Shown: piece after piece, positions 1,690-21,227 of the stretch
Numbering within the stretch: the stretch's first letter is position 1
Layout of the letters: each line of letters begins with the position of its first letter
DNA from: Rhodothermus marinus DSM 4252
GTDB lineage: Bacteria > Bacteroidota > Rhodothermia > Rhodothermales > Rhodothermaceae
NCBI RefSeq assembly: GCF_000024845.1
Contig: NC_013501.1
Location: 2,708,874 to 2,772,873, forward strand
Length of the DNA stretch: 64,000 nucleotides
Direction: 5' to 3'
Translations under genes and position numbers: made by a program
Notes under the pieces: generated by a model
Told to the model about the DNA's origin: nothing
Seen by the model: only the letters and a program-made list of their open reading frames with translations
The model's database searches: none

Positions 1690-3021
1690 ATGGCGGAACG
1701 TTCGACCCCGGCAACTCAGCCCCGCACCAACGGCCAGACGGGCCGCACCTTCGGCTTCGAGACGCGCATGCTGCACGCGGGCCACATCCCCGACGCCGTC
1801 ACGGGCGCCCGCGCCGTGCCGATCTACCAGACGACCTCCTACGTCTTCGACGACGTGGACTACGCGGCCCAGCTCTTCGAACTCAAGCAGTACGGCAACA
1901 TCTACACGCGCATCAACAATCCCACGACAGCCGTTTTCGAGGAGCGCATGGCCTCGCTCGAAAACGGCACCGGCGCCGTGGCCACCTCCAGCGGCATGGC
2001 GGCCCAGTTTCTGACGTTGATGACGCTGCTGCAACCGGGCGACGAGGTCGTCGCCTCCAAGCACCTGTACGGCGGCACCAAGACCCAGCTCACCCACACC
2101 ATCAAGAAGCTGGGCGTGACGGTCCACTTCGTCGATCCGACCGACTTCGACGCCTGGGAGGCCGCCATCACACCGCGCACGCGGGCCTTCTACGGCGAGA
2201 CGATCGGCAACCCGCAGGGCAGCATCCTTGACATCGAGCGGCTGGCCGAACTGGCCCACGCACACCGGATTCCGCTCATCGTCGATAACACGTTCGCCAC
2301 GCCGTACCTGTGCCGGCCCATCGACTGGGGCGCCGACATCGTCGTGCACTCGGCCACCAAGTTCATCGGCGGACACGGCAACTCCATCGGCGGCGTGGTC
2401 GTCGAGGCCGGCACGTTCGACTACAGCCACTTCCCCACGATCGCCGATCCGTCGCCCTCCTACCACGGCCTGCGCTTCTACGACACGTTCGGCCATCACG
2501 GCTTTCTGATGAAATTGCGGGCCGAAACGCTGCGCGACGTGGGCGCCTGCCTGTCGCCCTTCAATGCGTTTCTGCTCATTCAGGGACTGGAGACGCTCTC
2601 GATCCGCATGGAGCGGCACGTGGCCAACGCCCGCGCCGTGGCCGAATTTCTGAAGGATCATCCGAAAGTGGCCTGGGTGGCCTATGCCGGCCTGCCCGAC
2701 AGCCCCTACTACGAACTGGCCCAGAAGTACACGCCGCTGGGTCCGGGCGCCGTCTTCACGTTCGGGCTCAAGTACGGCAGCGAAGGGCCGCGCGCGGCCG
2801 GCAAGAAGTTCATCGAATCGCTCCAGCTCTTTTCGCATCTGGCCAACGTGGGCGACGTGCGCAGCCTGGTCATCCACCCGGCCACGACCACCCACCAGCA
2901 GCTTTCGGACGAAGAGCTGGAGGAAGCGGGCATCAAGCCCGAAATGATTCGCCTGTCGATCGGACTGGAAACCCTGGAGGACCTGCTATGGGATTTGGAT
3001 CAGGCCCTGCATGCGATCTGA
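1690..3021 (+). CDS. metY: O-acetylhomoserine sulfhydrylase (PLP enzyme)
   Basis: 443 residues, the usual size for the MetY branch of the Cys/Met-metabolism PLP family. It makes homocysteine from O-acetylhomoserine and sulfide in the cytoplasm. The internal-aldimine lysine is Lys224 in [11 protein letters not shown]. The N-terminal TLHAG-like region (ETRMLHAGH), the YTRINNPTT motif and the SSGMAAQ stretch are all present. The ATG at 1690 gives a complete N-terminus. The downstream CoA-binding gene overlaps its 3' end. MetY enzymes take free sulfide or, in some bacteria, sulfur from a protein thiocarboxylate. The latter is relevant here because a sulfite reductase with a carrier domain lies 16 kb away. 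Confidence 0.93.
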
Positions 3022-17056: not shown

Positions 17057-17109
17057 CGGCTACCCTCCTTTTGGTTTGCACCCCCCGTCTGCCACAAACG
17101 GGGAAACAT

Positions 17110-17154
17110 TGTATGGTGAACAATCAATGCCTCCGTATGGAGGCACCCCATACA
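17110..17154 (-). promoter_or_regulatory. Candidate structured leader element upstream of speD
   Basis: TGTATGG (17110-17116) pairs with CCATACA (17148-17154), enclosing a perfect inner hairpin GCCTCC-GTAT-GGAGGC (17129-17144). In the speD transcript this would form a two-part stem in the 5' leader, ending about 54 bases before the start codon. It could be a regulatory RNA fold or a protein-binding site. I recognise no known riboswitch class in it. Confidence 0.4.
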
Positions 17155-17606
17155 ACCGCAGTCCTGGTGAGCGAAGGGTAGGAGGACGCCGGAAGACGCT
17201 CGGCCACGCTACAGACGCGTCCTCTTTAGCTTACGAACTCACCAGCCGCTAGCGCATCACGAGCGCATCCCGCTGCTGCAGGACGCCTCGTGAAAAAACG
17301 CATTCAAAGAACGCGGGCGTTGCGGTTCAGGATCGCACCTGGTGGCAGCAGGCCCTTTCCTGAAGGAGGAACAACGAAAATTACACAGCAGAACGATCTT
17401 TGTAAAACCCGGTTTTCCCCGACCTTATTTTTTCACAAACCGCCCCTCGCACCGGGGGGCTGATGAACGAGTCCACTCCACCGGGGTTCCGTTACCGGCC
17501 GTGCAGGCGTTTGCCCAGCCCCCATTTAACATTTTTTAACACACCATCCCGAGCCGGCCCGTGGAACCCGTCTGGATACCGGGCGTTGGCCGTTCCAAAC
17601 TGAACA
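17155..17606. other. Intergenic stretch without recognised genes
   Basis: About 450 bases between the speD leader and the sulfur-operon promoter. Base composition is more A/T-rich around 17380-17450 than in the flanking genes. I see no convincing open frame with a start signal, no tRNA-like fold and no repeat. It probably holds the speD promoter on the minus strand. Confidence 0.5.
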
Positions 17607-17635
17607 TTGACGAGCCGACGTTCGGTTCTTATCTT
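17607..17635 (+). promoter_or_regulatory. Sigma-70-like promoter for the sulfate-assimilation operon
   Basis: TTGACG at 17607-17612 and TATCTT at 17630-17635 are separated by 17 bp, a close match to the housekeeping -35/-10 pattern. A transcript would begin near 17642, leaving about 24 bases before a short cysteine-rich open frame and about 345 bases before the sulfite reductase start. Confidence 0.5.
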
Positions 17636-17665
17636 TAGCGCGTTCGGTTCAAACGAGCACTTGCC

Positions 17666-17770
17666 ATGACGCATCGGCCAACCACACGGCACCAGGCATT
17701 GCGGCGCTGCTGGCCTTTCCGGACCGCAGCCATGCTGCAGGTGGCTGGTCGATGTTGCTGTATGGGCTGA
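17666..17770 (+). CDS. Candidate cysteine-rich leader peptide
   Basis: A 34-codon frame opens with ATG at 17666 just behind the predicted promoter and ends at TGA 17770. It has four cysteines, three of them consecutive near the end (codons TGT TGC TGT at 17753-17761, in GRCCCMG). It lies upstream of sulfite reductase and APS/PAPS reductase genes, so ribosome stalling on the Cys codons could sense cysteine supply. Short poly-cysteine leaders that control cysteine genes are known in mycobacteria; whether this one works the same way is inference. No clear Shine-Dalgarno sequence precedes it. Small hairpins downstream at 17823-17840 (GGGAG/CTCCC) and 17854-17870 (CCGCT/AGCGG) may take part. Confidence 0.45.
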   Translation: MTHRPTTRHQALRRCWPFRTAAMLQVAGRCCCMG

Positions 17771-17986
17771 TCGCCTCTCGCTCTGCCCCGGTCTGAAGGC
17801 TTCTTCCCCTTTTTCACCACCTGCGGGAGTATTCTATCTCCCTGTACCTGTATCCGCTGACGTAAAGCGGAAACGTCGAGCCTTCCGGATCGGTGGCCTT
17901 GCGCAGGTTACGCTTCCTCTGTGCATTCCGGCGGCATAGCCGTTCGTGTGCATTTTCCCCACGGTTCACCAAAGCCCTGTAGCCTT

Positions 17987-19918
17987 ATGTCGGAGACGAA
18001 AACCTTTGTCCGTTACGGGCGACGCGCCCAGGAACTCAACTGGGAGCTGGTACTCAAGCGTAACAGCATCGAACGCCTCAAGCAGGAGCGTCCCCCGCTG
18101 CGCGTCGTCGAGGAGCTTCCGGAGCTGATCGAACGCGGCTACGAAGCCATCCCCGAAGAAGACATCGTGCGCCTCTACTGGTACGGCATCGCGCACGACA
18201 AGCCCAAGGTAGGCACCTTCATGGTGCGCCTCAAGGTGCCCGGTGGGCTGCTGCGTCCGGACCAGCTCCGGGCCATCGGGGAAATCGCCGGACGCTACGG
18301 CCGCGACTACGGCGAGCTGACCACGCGCCAGGGCATCCAGCTCCACTGGGTGGCCATGGACAAACTGCCCGAGGTGCTGGAAGCCATCGGCCGGGCCGGA
18401 CTGACCACTGTGGGTGCCGAGGGCGACACGGTGCGCAACATCACCAGCTGCCCGGTCAACGGCATCAACCCGGACGAGTTGTTCGACGTCCGGCCCGTCA
18501 TCGAAGAAGCCGCCCGCTTCTTCTGGGGCAACCCGGACTACTCCAACCTGCCCCGCAAGCACAAATTCACGATCAGCAGCTGCCCCCACCAGTGCAATGC
18601 ACCGGAAATCCACGACATCGCACTGATCGGCGTGATCAAAGACGGGCGGCCGGGCTTCGCCGTCAAGGTGGGCGGCGGCCTGTCGGCCACGCCGCGCCTG
18701 GCGCGTGACCTGGGCGTGTTCGTGCCCGTGAACGAGGCGGTCGAGGTGCTGGCCGCCATCACGGACGTATGGCAGGACAACCTGCGCTACCGCCTGAGCC
18801 GGGCCAAGTCGCGCATCAAGTTTCTGGTGGACGACTACGGCCCGGAAGGCGTGCGCGAGATGGTCGAGGAGCGCCTCGGCCGCAAACTGGAAGACTTCCG
18901 CGCGCCCGATCCCGTGCCCGGCGGCAACCATCTGGGCATCCATCGCCAGAAGCAGGAAGGCTTCTACTACGCGGGTTTCCCGGTGCCTTCGGGACGAGTG
19001 ACCGGCACGCAACTGCGCCAGATCGCCGACATCCTGGAAGACGTTGGCGGCGACATCCGCTTCACGCGCGAGCAGAACTTCATCCTGGGTAACATTCCGG
19101 AAGATCGGCTCGACCGGGTGCTCGACCAGATGCGGGCCGTGGGCTTCCCCATCGAACGCCATCGGCTCTACGGCACCTCGACGGCCTGCACCAGCCACCA
19201 GTTCTGCAACTACTCCGTCGCCGAAACCAAGGAAAAGCTCGACGAAATCATCGCCGAGCTGGAAGCCCACTTCGGCGACGAAGTGCAGGACCTGACGATC
19301 TACATGGACGGCTGCCCGCATGCCTGCGCCCATCACTGGGTGGGCGACATCGGGCTGCAGGGCACGCGCACGGCCGGCCCCAACGGCACGAAGATCGAAG
19401 CCTACGACGTGACGCTGCGGGGCGGACTGGGCGTGCACGCCGCCATCGGCCGGCCCATCCTTCGTCGCATTCCCTCCGAGGAGATCAGCCAGGCCATCGT
19501 CCGGCTGGTGGGCGCCTGGTTGCAGGAGCGCCGTCGCCTGGGCGACCACTACACGTTCCAGGCCTTCTGCGAAGCTCACACGAACGAGGAGCTGCAAGCC
19601 ATCGCCCTGGGCGAAGTGACGGCCGAGGAAGTGGAGGCGGCCGACGTGGCGCTCATCCGCATCCCCGGTCCGCTGCTGGAGCTGACCGACGGCAGCGACG
19701 TCATCGAAGTGCGCGCCCCCACCGTGCGCGTCGCGCTTGAGCAGGCCGGCCGTCGCTATCCCCGACTGAAGGAGACCGTGCTCACGCCCGACGGCCAGGT
19801 CAACGAAGCCTTTAACCTCTACGTGAACGAAGAGGACATTCAGGGCCTGCAGGGCCTCGACACCCCGCTCAAGCCGGGCGACGAGCTGCTCATTCTCATG
19901 GCAATGTCCGGTGGTTAA
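17987..19918 (+). CDS. Ferredoxin-type sulfite (or nitrite) reductase with C-terminal ThiS/MoaD-like sulfur-carrier domain
   Basis: 643 residues. The first 550 or so form a siroheme/4Fe-4S reductase: duplicated ferrodoxin-like halves, TSCPVNG and SSCPHQCNA, and the cluster-ligand cysteines C401, C407 (CTSHQFC) and C443, C447 (CPHAC). The neighbouring APS/PAPS reductase favours sulfite over nitrite as substrate. Residues about 559-643 are a separate beta-grasp domain with the MoaD/ThiS pattern (LYVNEEDIQGLQGLDTPLKPGDEL), and the protein ends exactly in Gly-Gly. A carrier with this tail can be adenylated and thiocarboxylated, so sulfide made by the reductase could be loaded onto its own tail. 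The ATG at 17987 is chosen over in-frame codons further upstream. Confidence 0.9.
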   Translation: MSETKTFVRYGRRAQELNWELVLKRNSIERLKQERPPLRVVEELPELIERGYEAIPEEDIVRLYWYGIAHDKPKVGTFMVRLKVPGGLLRPDQLRAIGEIAGRYGRDYGELTTRQGIQLHWVAMDKLPEVLEAIGRAGLTTVGAEGDTVRNITSCPVNGINPDELFDVRPVIEEAARFFWGNPDYSNLPRKHKFTISSCPHQCNAPEIHDIALIGVIKDGRPGFAVKVGGGLSATPRLARDLGVFVPVNEAVEVLAAITDVWQDNLRYRLSRAKSRIKFLVDDYGPEGVREMVEERLGRKLEDFRAPDPVPGGNHLGIHRQKQEGFYYAGFPVPSGRVTGTQLRQIADILEDVGGDIRFTREQNFILGNIPEDRLDRVLDQMRAVGFPIERHRLYGTSTACTSHQFCNYSVAETKEKLDEIIAELEAHFGDEVQDLTIYMDGCPHACAHHWVGDIGLQGTRTAGPNGTKIEAYDVTLRGGLGVHAAIGRPILRRIPSEEISQAIVRLVGAWLQERRRLGDHYTFQAFCEAHTNEELQAIALGEVTAEEVEAADVALIRIPGPLLELTDGSDVIEVRAPTVRVALEQAGRRYPRLKETVLTPDGQVNEAFNLYVNEEDIQGLQGLDTPLKPGDELLILMAMSGG

Positions 19919-19948: not shown

Positions 19949-20755
19949 ATGGCACGCCAGCCACTGTTTGACGACCTGGAAATCGGCGAAATCGCGCTCC
20001 AGCTCGACGATCAGGAGCCGGAGGACGTGATCGCCTGGGCGCTGGAGACCTTCGACGAAGATCGCATCGCCATTGTCACGGCGCTCCAGGCCGACGGCAT
20101 GGTGATCCTGGACATGGCCTACCGGATGAAGCCGAACATCCGGGTGATGACGGTCGATACGGGCCGTCTGCCCCAGGCCACCTACGATTTCTACGAGCAG
20201 GTGCGCGAGCGCTATCCGGAGGCGCGCTTCGAGGTGCTCTTCCCGGACTACCGGGAGGTGGAGGAAATGGTGCGCCGCCATGGCATCAACCTTTTCTACA
20301 AGTCGGTCCCGATGCGCCTGCTCTGCTGCCACGTGCGCAAGGTGCGGCCGCTCATCCGGGCGCTCAACCAGCTCGACGCCTGGTTCACGGGGCTGCGGCG
20401 TGACCAGTGGGCCTCGCGGGCGGCCATCCGCAAGGTGGAAATCGACCACGACCACGATGGCGTGATCAAGATCAATCCGCTGGCCGACTGGACCAAGGAG
20501 GACGTGTGGGCCTACATCGAAGAATTCGACGTGCCCAAGCATCCGCTCTACGCCGAGGGCTACACGAGCATCGGCTGCGCGCCCTGCACCCGACCCATCC
20601 AGCCCGGCGAAGACGACCGGGCCGGCCGCTGGTGGTGGGAGACGAACGCGCCCAAGGAGTGCGGCATCCACTGCCCCATTGAAACCGGTGGCTTCGAGCA
20701 CGAAATGGAAGCCATCGTCGGCCACGGACACCACGAAAACGGCCACGCCCACTGA
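19949..20755 (+). CDS. cysH: APS/PAPS reductase (assimilatory, iron-sulfur type)
   Basis: 268 residues. It reduces adenylyl-sulfate (or PAPS) to sulfite, the substrate of the preceding gene. The substrate-binding VDTGRLPQATY motif is at about residue 69. A Cys-Cys pair (C126-C127) and a later CxxC (C210, C213) are the 4Fe-4S ligands that mark the APS-type enzyme, and the catalytic cysteine is in ECGIH (C238). The His-rich tail (GHGHHENGHAH) is unusual and might bind metal. It starts 30 bases after the reductase stop, in the same operon. No ATP sulfurylase gene is in the window. Confidence 0.92.
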   Translation: MARQPLFDDLEIGEIALQLDDQEPEDVIAWALETFDEDRIAIVTALQADGMVILDMAYRMKPNIRVMTVDTGRLPQATYDFYEQVRERYPEARFEVLFPDYREVEEMVRRHGINLFYKSVPMRLLCCHVRKVRPLIRALNQLDAWFTGLRRDQWASRAAIRKVEIDHDHDGVIKINPLADWTKEDVWAYIEEFDVPKHPLYAEGYTSIGCAPCTRPIQPGEDDRAGRWWWETNAPKECGIHCPIETGGFEHEMEAIVGHGHHENGHAH

Positions 20756-20771
20756 AACCTGTGACGCTAAC

Positions 20772-21227
20772 ATGCCGCTGACCATTCCCGAAGCAGCCCG
20801 GGAGCCGCTGGTACAGGAATTGGAAAATTTTGCCGCCTCGATGCCGGACCCGAGGGCCCGTGACCTGTACCGGCGGCTCCTGGAAGCTGTCGCCACCGGC
20901 GAGGTGGACGAAACGCTGGACGAGCCACTGGGACGCTTCCTGGAGGTGGCGCTGCAGACCGGCCGCATCCGACAGCGGCACGGCCCGCACGAAGAAAAGG
21001 CGCTGCGGGCGCTGTACCATCAGACGCAACGCGGCCGTCAGATTCTGGAGGCCATCCAGCAGGCCAACGAGGCGCTGCGGGCGCTGCAGGGTCACACGCT
21101 GCGCGAGCTGACGTTCACCCCCCACAATCCCGGCGCCTATCGGCTGACGCTCGGCACCGACCAGGTGCGCCTGACGCTGGAGATCAACGCACAGGGCGTC
21201 TGGGTCGAAAACCTTGTCGTCGGATAA
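20772..21227 (+). CDS. Conserved-looking protein of unknown function in the sulfur operon
   Basis: 151 residues from the ATG at 20772. The first 100 or so look alpha-helical, with repeated Leu, Ala and charged residues. The end looks like a small beta-sheet (TFTPHNPGAYRLTLGTDQVRLTLEINAQGVWVENLVV). No signal peptide, membrane segment or cysteine is visible. It lies 16 bases after cysH and two bases before the TrpD2-like gene, so it is probably translated with them. I do not recognise the family. A function tied to sulfur or nitrogen assimilation is inferred from position only. Confidence 0.7.
   Translation: MPLTIPEAAREPLVQELENFAASMPDPRARDLYRRLLEAVATGEVDETLDEPLGRFLEVALQTGRIRQRHGPHEEKALRALYHQTQRGRQILEAIQQANEALRALQGHTLRELTFTPHNPGAYRLTLGTDQVRLTLEINAQGVWVENLVVG

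Follow-up and report, generated by a model that had tools for sequence, protein, structure and literature searches.

A sulfite reductase fused to a CysO-like domain with a conserved Gly-Gly in Rhodothermus and other bacteria: a likely tethered sulfur carrier

Does a sulfite reductase that is joined to its own sulfur-carrier domain hand its sulfide to that domain? The question is raised by a gene of Rhodothermus marinus DSM 4252, here called sir-thiS, at 17987..19918 on the forward strand of a 64,000-nucleotide stretch of DNA (the window, to which all coordinates without a locus label refer). The host genome comprises two contigs, of which the larger accounts for 3,261,604 of a total of 3,386,737 bases. 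In an initial annotation, made from the DNA letters, the C-terminus of the encoded protein was assigned to the MoaD/ThiS-type beta-grasp domains with a Gly-Gly end, and it was proposed that sulfur is channelled from the reductase to an acceptor enzyme such as MetY.

Translation of 17987-19918 on the forward strand yields a stop-free open reading frame of 643 residues with the C-terminus ...LLILMAMSGG*. Pfam, AlphaFold2, Foldseek and the alignment identify the product, Sir-ThiS, as a siroheme/[4Fe-4S] sulfite reductase with a C-terminal ThiS/CysO-like domain. The catalytic part, encoded at 17987..19606 on the forward strand, is of the NirA/Sir type in Pfam and in the alignment; the siroheme reductase occupies residues about 18-540 and contains two NIR_SIR_ferr and two NIR_SIR stretches (Pfam). 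The active-site set R81, R114, R150, K191 and K193 is conserved, and the K-x-K marker formed by the two lysines is found in 78 of the 83 sequences aligned. The paralogues have K-x-N, among them L020, the host's second, nitrite-reductase-like enzyme of the NirA/Sir family. We take K-x-K and K-x-N to be the marks of sulfite and nitrite reductases, respectively. In a Foldseek search with the predicted structure, the body of the protein resembled NirA of M. tuberculosis (TM 0.87 on target), and tobacco Nii3 N226K was among the structures in the result. Sir-ThiS is predicted to reduce sulfite.

The AlphaFold2 model (mean pLDDT 89.1) places the beta-grasp domain apart from the reductase, beyond a flexible linker of residues 545-552 (19619..19642, forward strand; pLDDT <50). 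The domain itself, residues 557-643 at 19655..19915 on the forward strand, matches the Pfam family PF02597 (ThiS) with E 2.6e-10 and 41.1 bits (cut-off 22.5); phmmer related it to CysO of Amycolatopsis (4n6e, 2.5e-8), a MoaD-related protein of Thermus (1v8c) and CysO of M. tuberculosis (3dwg), and the predicted fold matched CysO in Foldseek with TM values of 0.87 and 0.90. The tail domain is therefore similar to free CysO both in sequence and in predicted structure. Residues 641-643 form a flexible tail, and the Gly-Gly lies exposed at the C-terminus; Gly642 and Gly643 are encoded by GGT GGT at 19910..19915 on the forward strand and are followed by TAA. Sir-ThiS is a sulfite reductase that carries its own ThiS/MoaD/CysO-type domain with a Ser-Gly-Gly end. 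It might instead have turned out that the C-terminus is an ordinary reductase domain or that relatives lack the Gly-Gly; neither is the case, and the domain assignment of the initial annotation stands.

Sir-thiS is the first gene of an operon. The second, cysH (19949..20755, forward strand; Pfam, NCBIfam), begins 30 bases downstream and encodes an APS/PAPS reductase predicted to supply the sulfite. The third (20772..21227, forward strand) encodes a conserved protein of 151 residues, defined by comparative loci and a predicted structure; a gene for such a protein of about 150 residues follows cysH in 53 of the 63 loci that extend far enough downstream, with fused and unfused sir alike, and does so across many phyla (for example at L021, L024, L060 and L080) but not in Aquificota. 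Its product belongs to no Pfam or NCBIfam family, and its predicted structure (pLDDT 95.6), six helices followed by four strands, has no fold match in the PDB at E 0.001. The gene is a candidate component of bacterial sulfate assimilation without a known family. Upstream of sir, about 900 bases (17060-17986) contain no clear gene; no regulator was identified there, and the window gave no Rfam match.

How often the fusion occurs had been left to a survey in the initial annotation. A scan of 84,980 species genomes with two reductase peptide patterns, of which the best 80 loci were kept and which is therefore not a census, provided 35 full-length fusions for comparison, five of them from Rhodothermus. 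Among these best 80 loci the fusion occurs in at least seven phyla, namely Rhodothermota, Chloroflexota, Acidobacteriota, Armatimonadota, Actinomycetota, Candidatus Tectimicrobiota and Aquificota, and in unplaced genomes. Within the sample of the host's phylum, the fused protein is confined to the genus Rhodothermus (5 of 394 genomes), to which the relatives with 96 and 93% identity belong; two other genomes listed in that sample have unfused paralogues only (34%). The nearest reductase outside the genus among the best 80 loci is that of a Chloroflexota genome (71%), with which the Rhodothermus reductase groups in a tree of the reductase part (support 98), indicating that the gene was probably exchanged between lineages. 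Of the 40 best plasmid records listed, none extends over the carrier domain; the closest match (48%) is an unfused enzyme.

In the tree built from the reductase part, the fused enzymes fall into a clade of 29 rows (support 100), a clade of five Aquificota rows (support 100) and the lone L090. A single clade of all fused reductases was rejected by the AU test (p 1e-45, or 5e-8 without L090), so that the pairing must have arisen, been lost, or moved between lineages repeatedly. The tree does not separate gains from losses and may also be compatible with one early gain followed by several losses. Repeated origin or transfer, or retention through several losses, is what is expected of a functional link between the two domains. 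When the carrier domains are compared, those of the two main groups cluster within the CysO-like family (support 88, from few columns), separate from the free CysO proteins that these genomes also encode. The carrier domain of L090 falls on a long branch with true ThiS. L090, from an unplaced bacterium, is a separate kind of fusion (L090:1073-3478), in which a sulfite reductase is joined to a short domain resembling true ThiS with an 11-residue tail beyond the Gly-Gly; a second, truncated sulfite reductase gene follows. No free ThiS was found beside unfused reductases, whether among the open reading frames or in the forward frames immediately downstream.

Without exception, the 35 aligned fusions have the Gly-Gly, and a conserved alanine (residue 639) stands just ahead of the two glycines. 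Among the 22 rows that are less than 80% identical, the carrier domain has diverged to a mean pairwise identity of 40%, and only five of its 91 columns are invariant, the two glycine columns included. Since both glycines have been retained despite this divergence, their conservation is not due to chance. The position of the two glycines nevertheless varies. In 23 of the 35 fusions the protein ends exactly in Gly-Gly, in nine it continues for 2 to 11 further residues, and in three it continues in frame into CysH, so that 12 of the 35 have residues after the Gly-Gly and not all possess a ready tail. The three Sir-ThiS-CysH proteins are single open frames with an internal Gly-Gly and no stop before CysH: L025:9962-12742 from Anaerolineae, and L082:3858-6596 and L084:9989-12640 from Aquificota. 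L082 and L084 lie on one branch and L025 lies elsewhere, from which it follows that this arrangement arose twice. Assembly errors in metagenome contigs could have removed the stops, but they are unlikely to have done so in three genomes.

For the domain of Sir-ThiS-CysH to act as a carrier, it would have to be cut free, plausibly by the JAMM peptidase, which is encoded together with an E1 in all three genomes. A precedent for an internal Gly-Gly is the MoaD-MoaE fusion of Deinococcus radiodurans (DR0402), which is cleaved by the JAMM peptidase DRJAMM such that a C-terminal glycine remains (PMC8832034). There, too, the carrier glycine lies inside a fusion and is freed by JAMM, which makes the Deinococcus protein a model for Sir-ThiS-CysH; the partner enzyme differs, and cleavage of Sir-ThiS-CysH is proposed by analogy. 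The internal Gly-Gly is a direct test case, since the domain could act as a carrier only after cleavage. Internal Gly-Gly pairs were also seen in proteins in which CysO is fused in frame to an E1-rhodanese protein (L118:1162-2628 and L114:1153-2622 from Pyrinomonas, L104:1402-2925 from Anaerolineae; the domain make-up has Pfam support for L118 only). The genomes concerned encode JAMM, in Pyrinomonas directly upstream of the fusion.

The initial annotation had further asked whether a ThiF/MoeB-like activating enzyme co-occurs with the fusion. The host encodes a single ThiF-family E1, of the MoeZ type with a rhodanese domain, which lies far from sir-thiS in a CysM-JAMM-CysO-MoeZ operon. This E1 could in principle activate the fused domain; any charging of that domain in the host must fall to it, and it would have to serve MoaD (L004), ThiS (L005) and CysO as well; these three, the fused domain and one marginal further match are the ThiS-family members over the cut-off. 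The host CysO (L002:1477-1773) ends in GG-Arg-Leu and would therefore have to be trimmed at its C-terminus before activation, presumably by the JAMM whose gene lies just upstream. An E1 is encoded in 31 of the 33 fusion genomes, the only genomes in which it was counted; the 33 include L099 and L100, which are represented by the gene start at a contig end and in which the fusion is assumed from similarity. Neither an E1 nor a JAMM gene lies beside the fusion in any locus examined. JAMM was also considered as evidence for the fusion and was rejected: it occurs in 29 of 33 fusion genomes and is equally common where the reductase is unfused (39 of 43 genomes, p 0.72). Most of the genomes surveyed are incomplete metagenome assemblies, so single absences are soft. 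The fusion genomes examined also contain free carriers of the CysO, ThiS or MoaD type, and it may be these on which their E1 and JAMM really act.

We regard a sulfur-carrier function of the fused domain as likely and, with moderate confidence, propose that the protein is an assimilatory sulfite reductase with a covalently tethered CysO-type carrier. The scheme that follows, from the chemistry at the tethered domain to the acceptor and the cleavage, is inferred. Sulfite made by CysH would be reduced to sulfide at the siroheme centre of Sir-ThiS. On the tethered domain, the last glycine would be adenylated, in the host by its only ThiF/E1, the MoeZ-type enzyme with the rhodanese domain. The adenylate would then react either with the sulfide that Sir-ThiS itself has produced, as in HcyS of Wolinella, or with a rhodanese persulfide. 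The resulting thiocarboxylate would pass its sulfur to a PLP-dependent sulfhydrylase, and the JAMM peptidase would release the product. In fusions that continue beyond the Gly-Gly, whether by a few residues or by a whole CysH, JAMM would first have to cut after the two glycines. If the tethered domain is charged with the sulfide of the same protein, sulfur would remain protein-bound all the way from sulfate to the amino acids, which would be one answer to the handling of toxic, volatile sulfide.

As general acceptor in this scheme, the CysO-dependent CysM would be a better candidate than MetY, which the initial annotation had named as an example. The gene for MetY, an O-acetylhomoserine sulfhydrylase (1690..3021, forward strand; Pfam, NCBIfam), lies outside the sir-cysH operon, about 15 kb away. 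MetY exceeds the curated cut-off in 8 of 33 fusion genomes and, where the reductase is unfused, in 6 of 43 (Fisher p 0.37), and no PF01053 enzyme, the PLP family of MetY, was found at E 1e-20 in the five Aquificota fusion genomes. MetY as a general acceptor was therefore rejected. The DUF39 homocysteine protein was found in none of the 33 fusion genomes, so that the Aquificota with the fusion lack both of the homocysteine makers searched for. Methionine synthesis in this group has already been described as an open gap (Price et al., PMC5764234). In two of the five Aquificota fusion genomes the JAMM gene directly adjoins genes for an asd-like semialdehyde dehydrogenase and a Memo-family protein (L144:1456-2892, L148:461-1896). 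This proximity is a lead only. It brings in aspartate semialdehyde as a possible target: JAMM of Aquificota might cut Sir-ThiS or Sir-ThiS-CysH after the Gly-Gly, and the tethered thiocarboxylate might feed a new homocysteine pathway, perhaps onto aspartate semialdehyde, a proposal that we consider highly doubtful.

The source of the sulfur is the point at which a second explanation departs from the mechanism proposed above. The domain might be a true thiocarboxylate carrier that obtains its sulfur from thiosulfate or cysteine through the rhodanese domain of the E1, with tethering serving regulation or stoichiometry rather than capture of the enzyme's own sulfide. The only E1 of the host has a rhodanese domain and is encoded with CysO rather than with sir, and many of the fusion genomes have E1 frames of about 400 residues or more, long enough for such a domain. 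However, the E1s of Aquificota, with about 270 residues, have no room for it, and the fact that this carrier is repeatedly paired with sulfite reductase and cysH, of all enzymes, also speaks against a rhodanese-fed carrier. We hold this explanation to be unlikely.

Two further explanations give the domain a role other than that of a sulfur carrier. As a docking or assembly module, it would never itself hold sulfur; its Gly-Gly would insert into E1, CysM or another partner and so place the reductase where sulfide is consumed. Such docking is known between CysO and CysM (structure 3dwg), and the Gly-Gly is kept in Sir-ThiS-CysH although it is internal. Yet all fusions have both glycines with Ala639 just before them, as active carriers do, and the JAMM encoded in all three Sir-ThiS-CysH genomes means that a free tail can be made there, which renders a mere docking function distinctly improbable. 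The tail might also be a ubiquitin-like modifier that the E1 conjugates to other proteins in the manner of SAMP, or that regulates the turnover of the reductase. JAMM peptidases also act on such conjugates, and NCBIfam lists SAMP1 for the domain, below the cut-off (39.6 of 60 bits). The closest solved relatives of the domain are, however, metabolic CysO proteins, and the operon consists of sulfate-assimilation genes and the third conserved gene only, so that a modifier is scarcely probable.

The tethered-carrier mechanism has to be seen against what is known of related systems. The fusion itself is not new. Sulfite reductases with a distinct C-terminal ThiS domain were described in Nocardioides and Acidothermus, Table 1 (row 4e) of that paper lists the fusion with genes for PAPS reductase, ATP sulfurylase, E1 and JAB, and it was proposed that sulfur from sulfate or sulfite may end on such carriers (Iyer, Burroughs and Aravind 2006, PMC1779556). 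The architecture is the same as that of Rhodothermus Sir-ThiS. To the two actinobacteria of that account are now added Rhodothermus and at least six more phyla. Neither E1 nor JAMM lies in the gene neighbourhood here, and the Sir-ThiS-CysH proteins with an internal Gly-Gly are not known to feature in that account. The fusion is real, conserved and on record since 2006, and its spread is much wider than was then noted. The literature searched, from which subscription journals were mostly absent, contained no experiments on any member of the fusion.

The ferredoxin-dependent sulfite reductase NirA of M. tuberculosis (1zj8), with which the catalytic part aligns over its length at the TM of 0.87 given above, has no C-terminal carrier domain. 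In Wolinella, the carrier HcyS, which is associated with a sulfite reductase as is the domain studied here, reportedly takes up bisulfide as a thiocarboxylate and is trimmed and released by JAMM. It is said to be a separate protein, encoded in a cluster with E1, JAMM and MetY. The likeness to that setting drawn in the initial annotation extends to the kind of carrier and not to the genes around it, since none of the three is linked to sir here and no dedicated E1 or JAMM accompanies the fusion; most fusion genomes, moreover, lack MetY. In both fold and sequence the tethered domain comes nearest to CysO, the carrier of the CysO-CysM-Mec+ route to cysteine of M. tuberculosis, and the host likewise has its CysM-JAMM-CysO-MoeZ operon. 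CysO of M. tuberculosis is a free protein, whereas Rhodothermus has a second, distinct CysO-like domain that is joined to the reductase.
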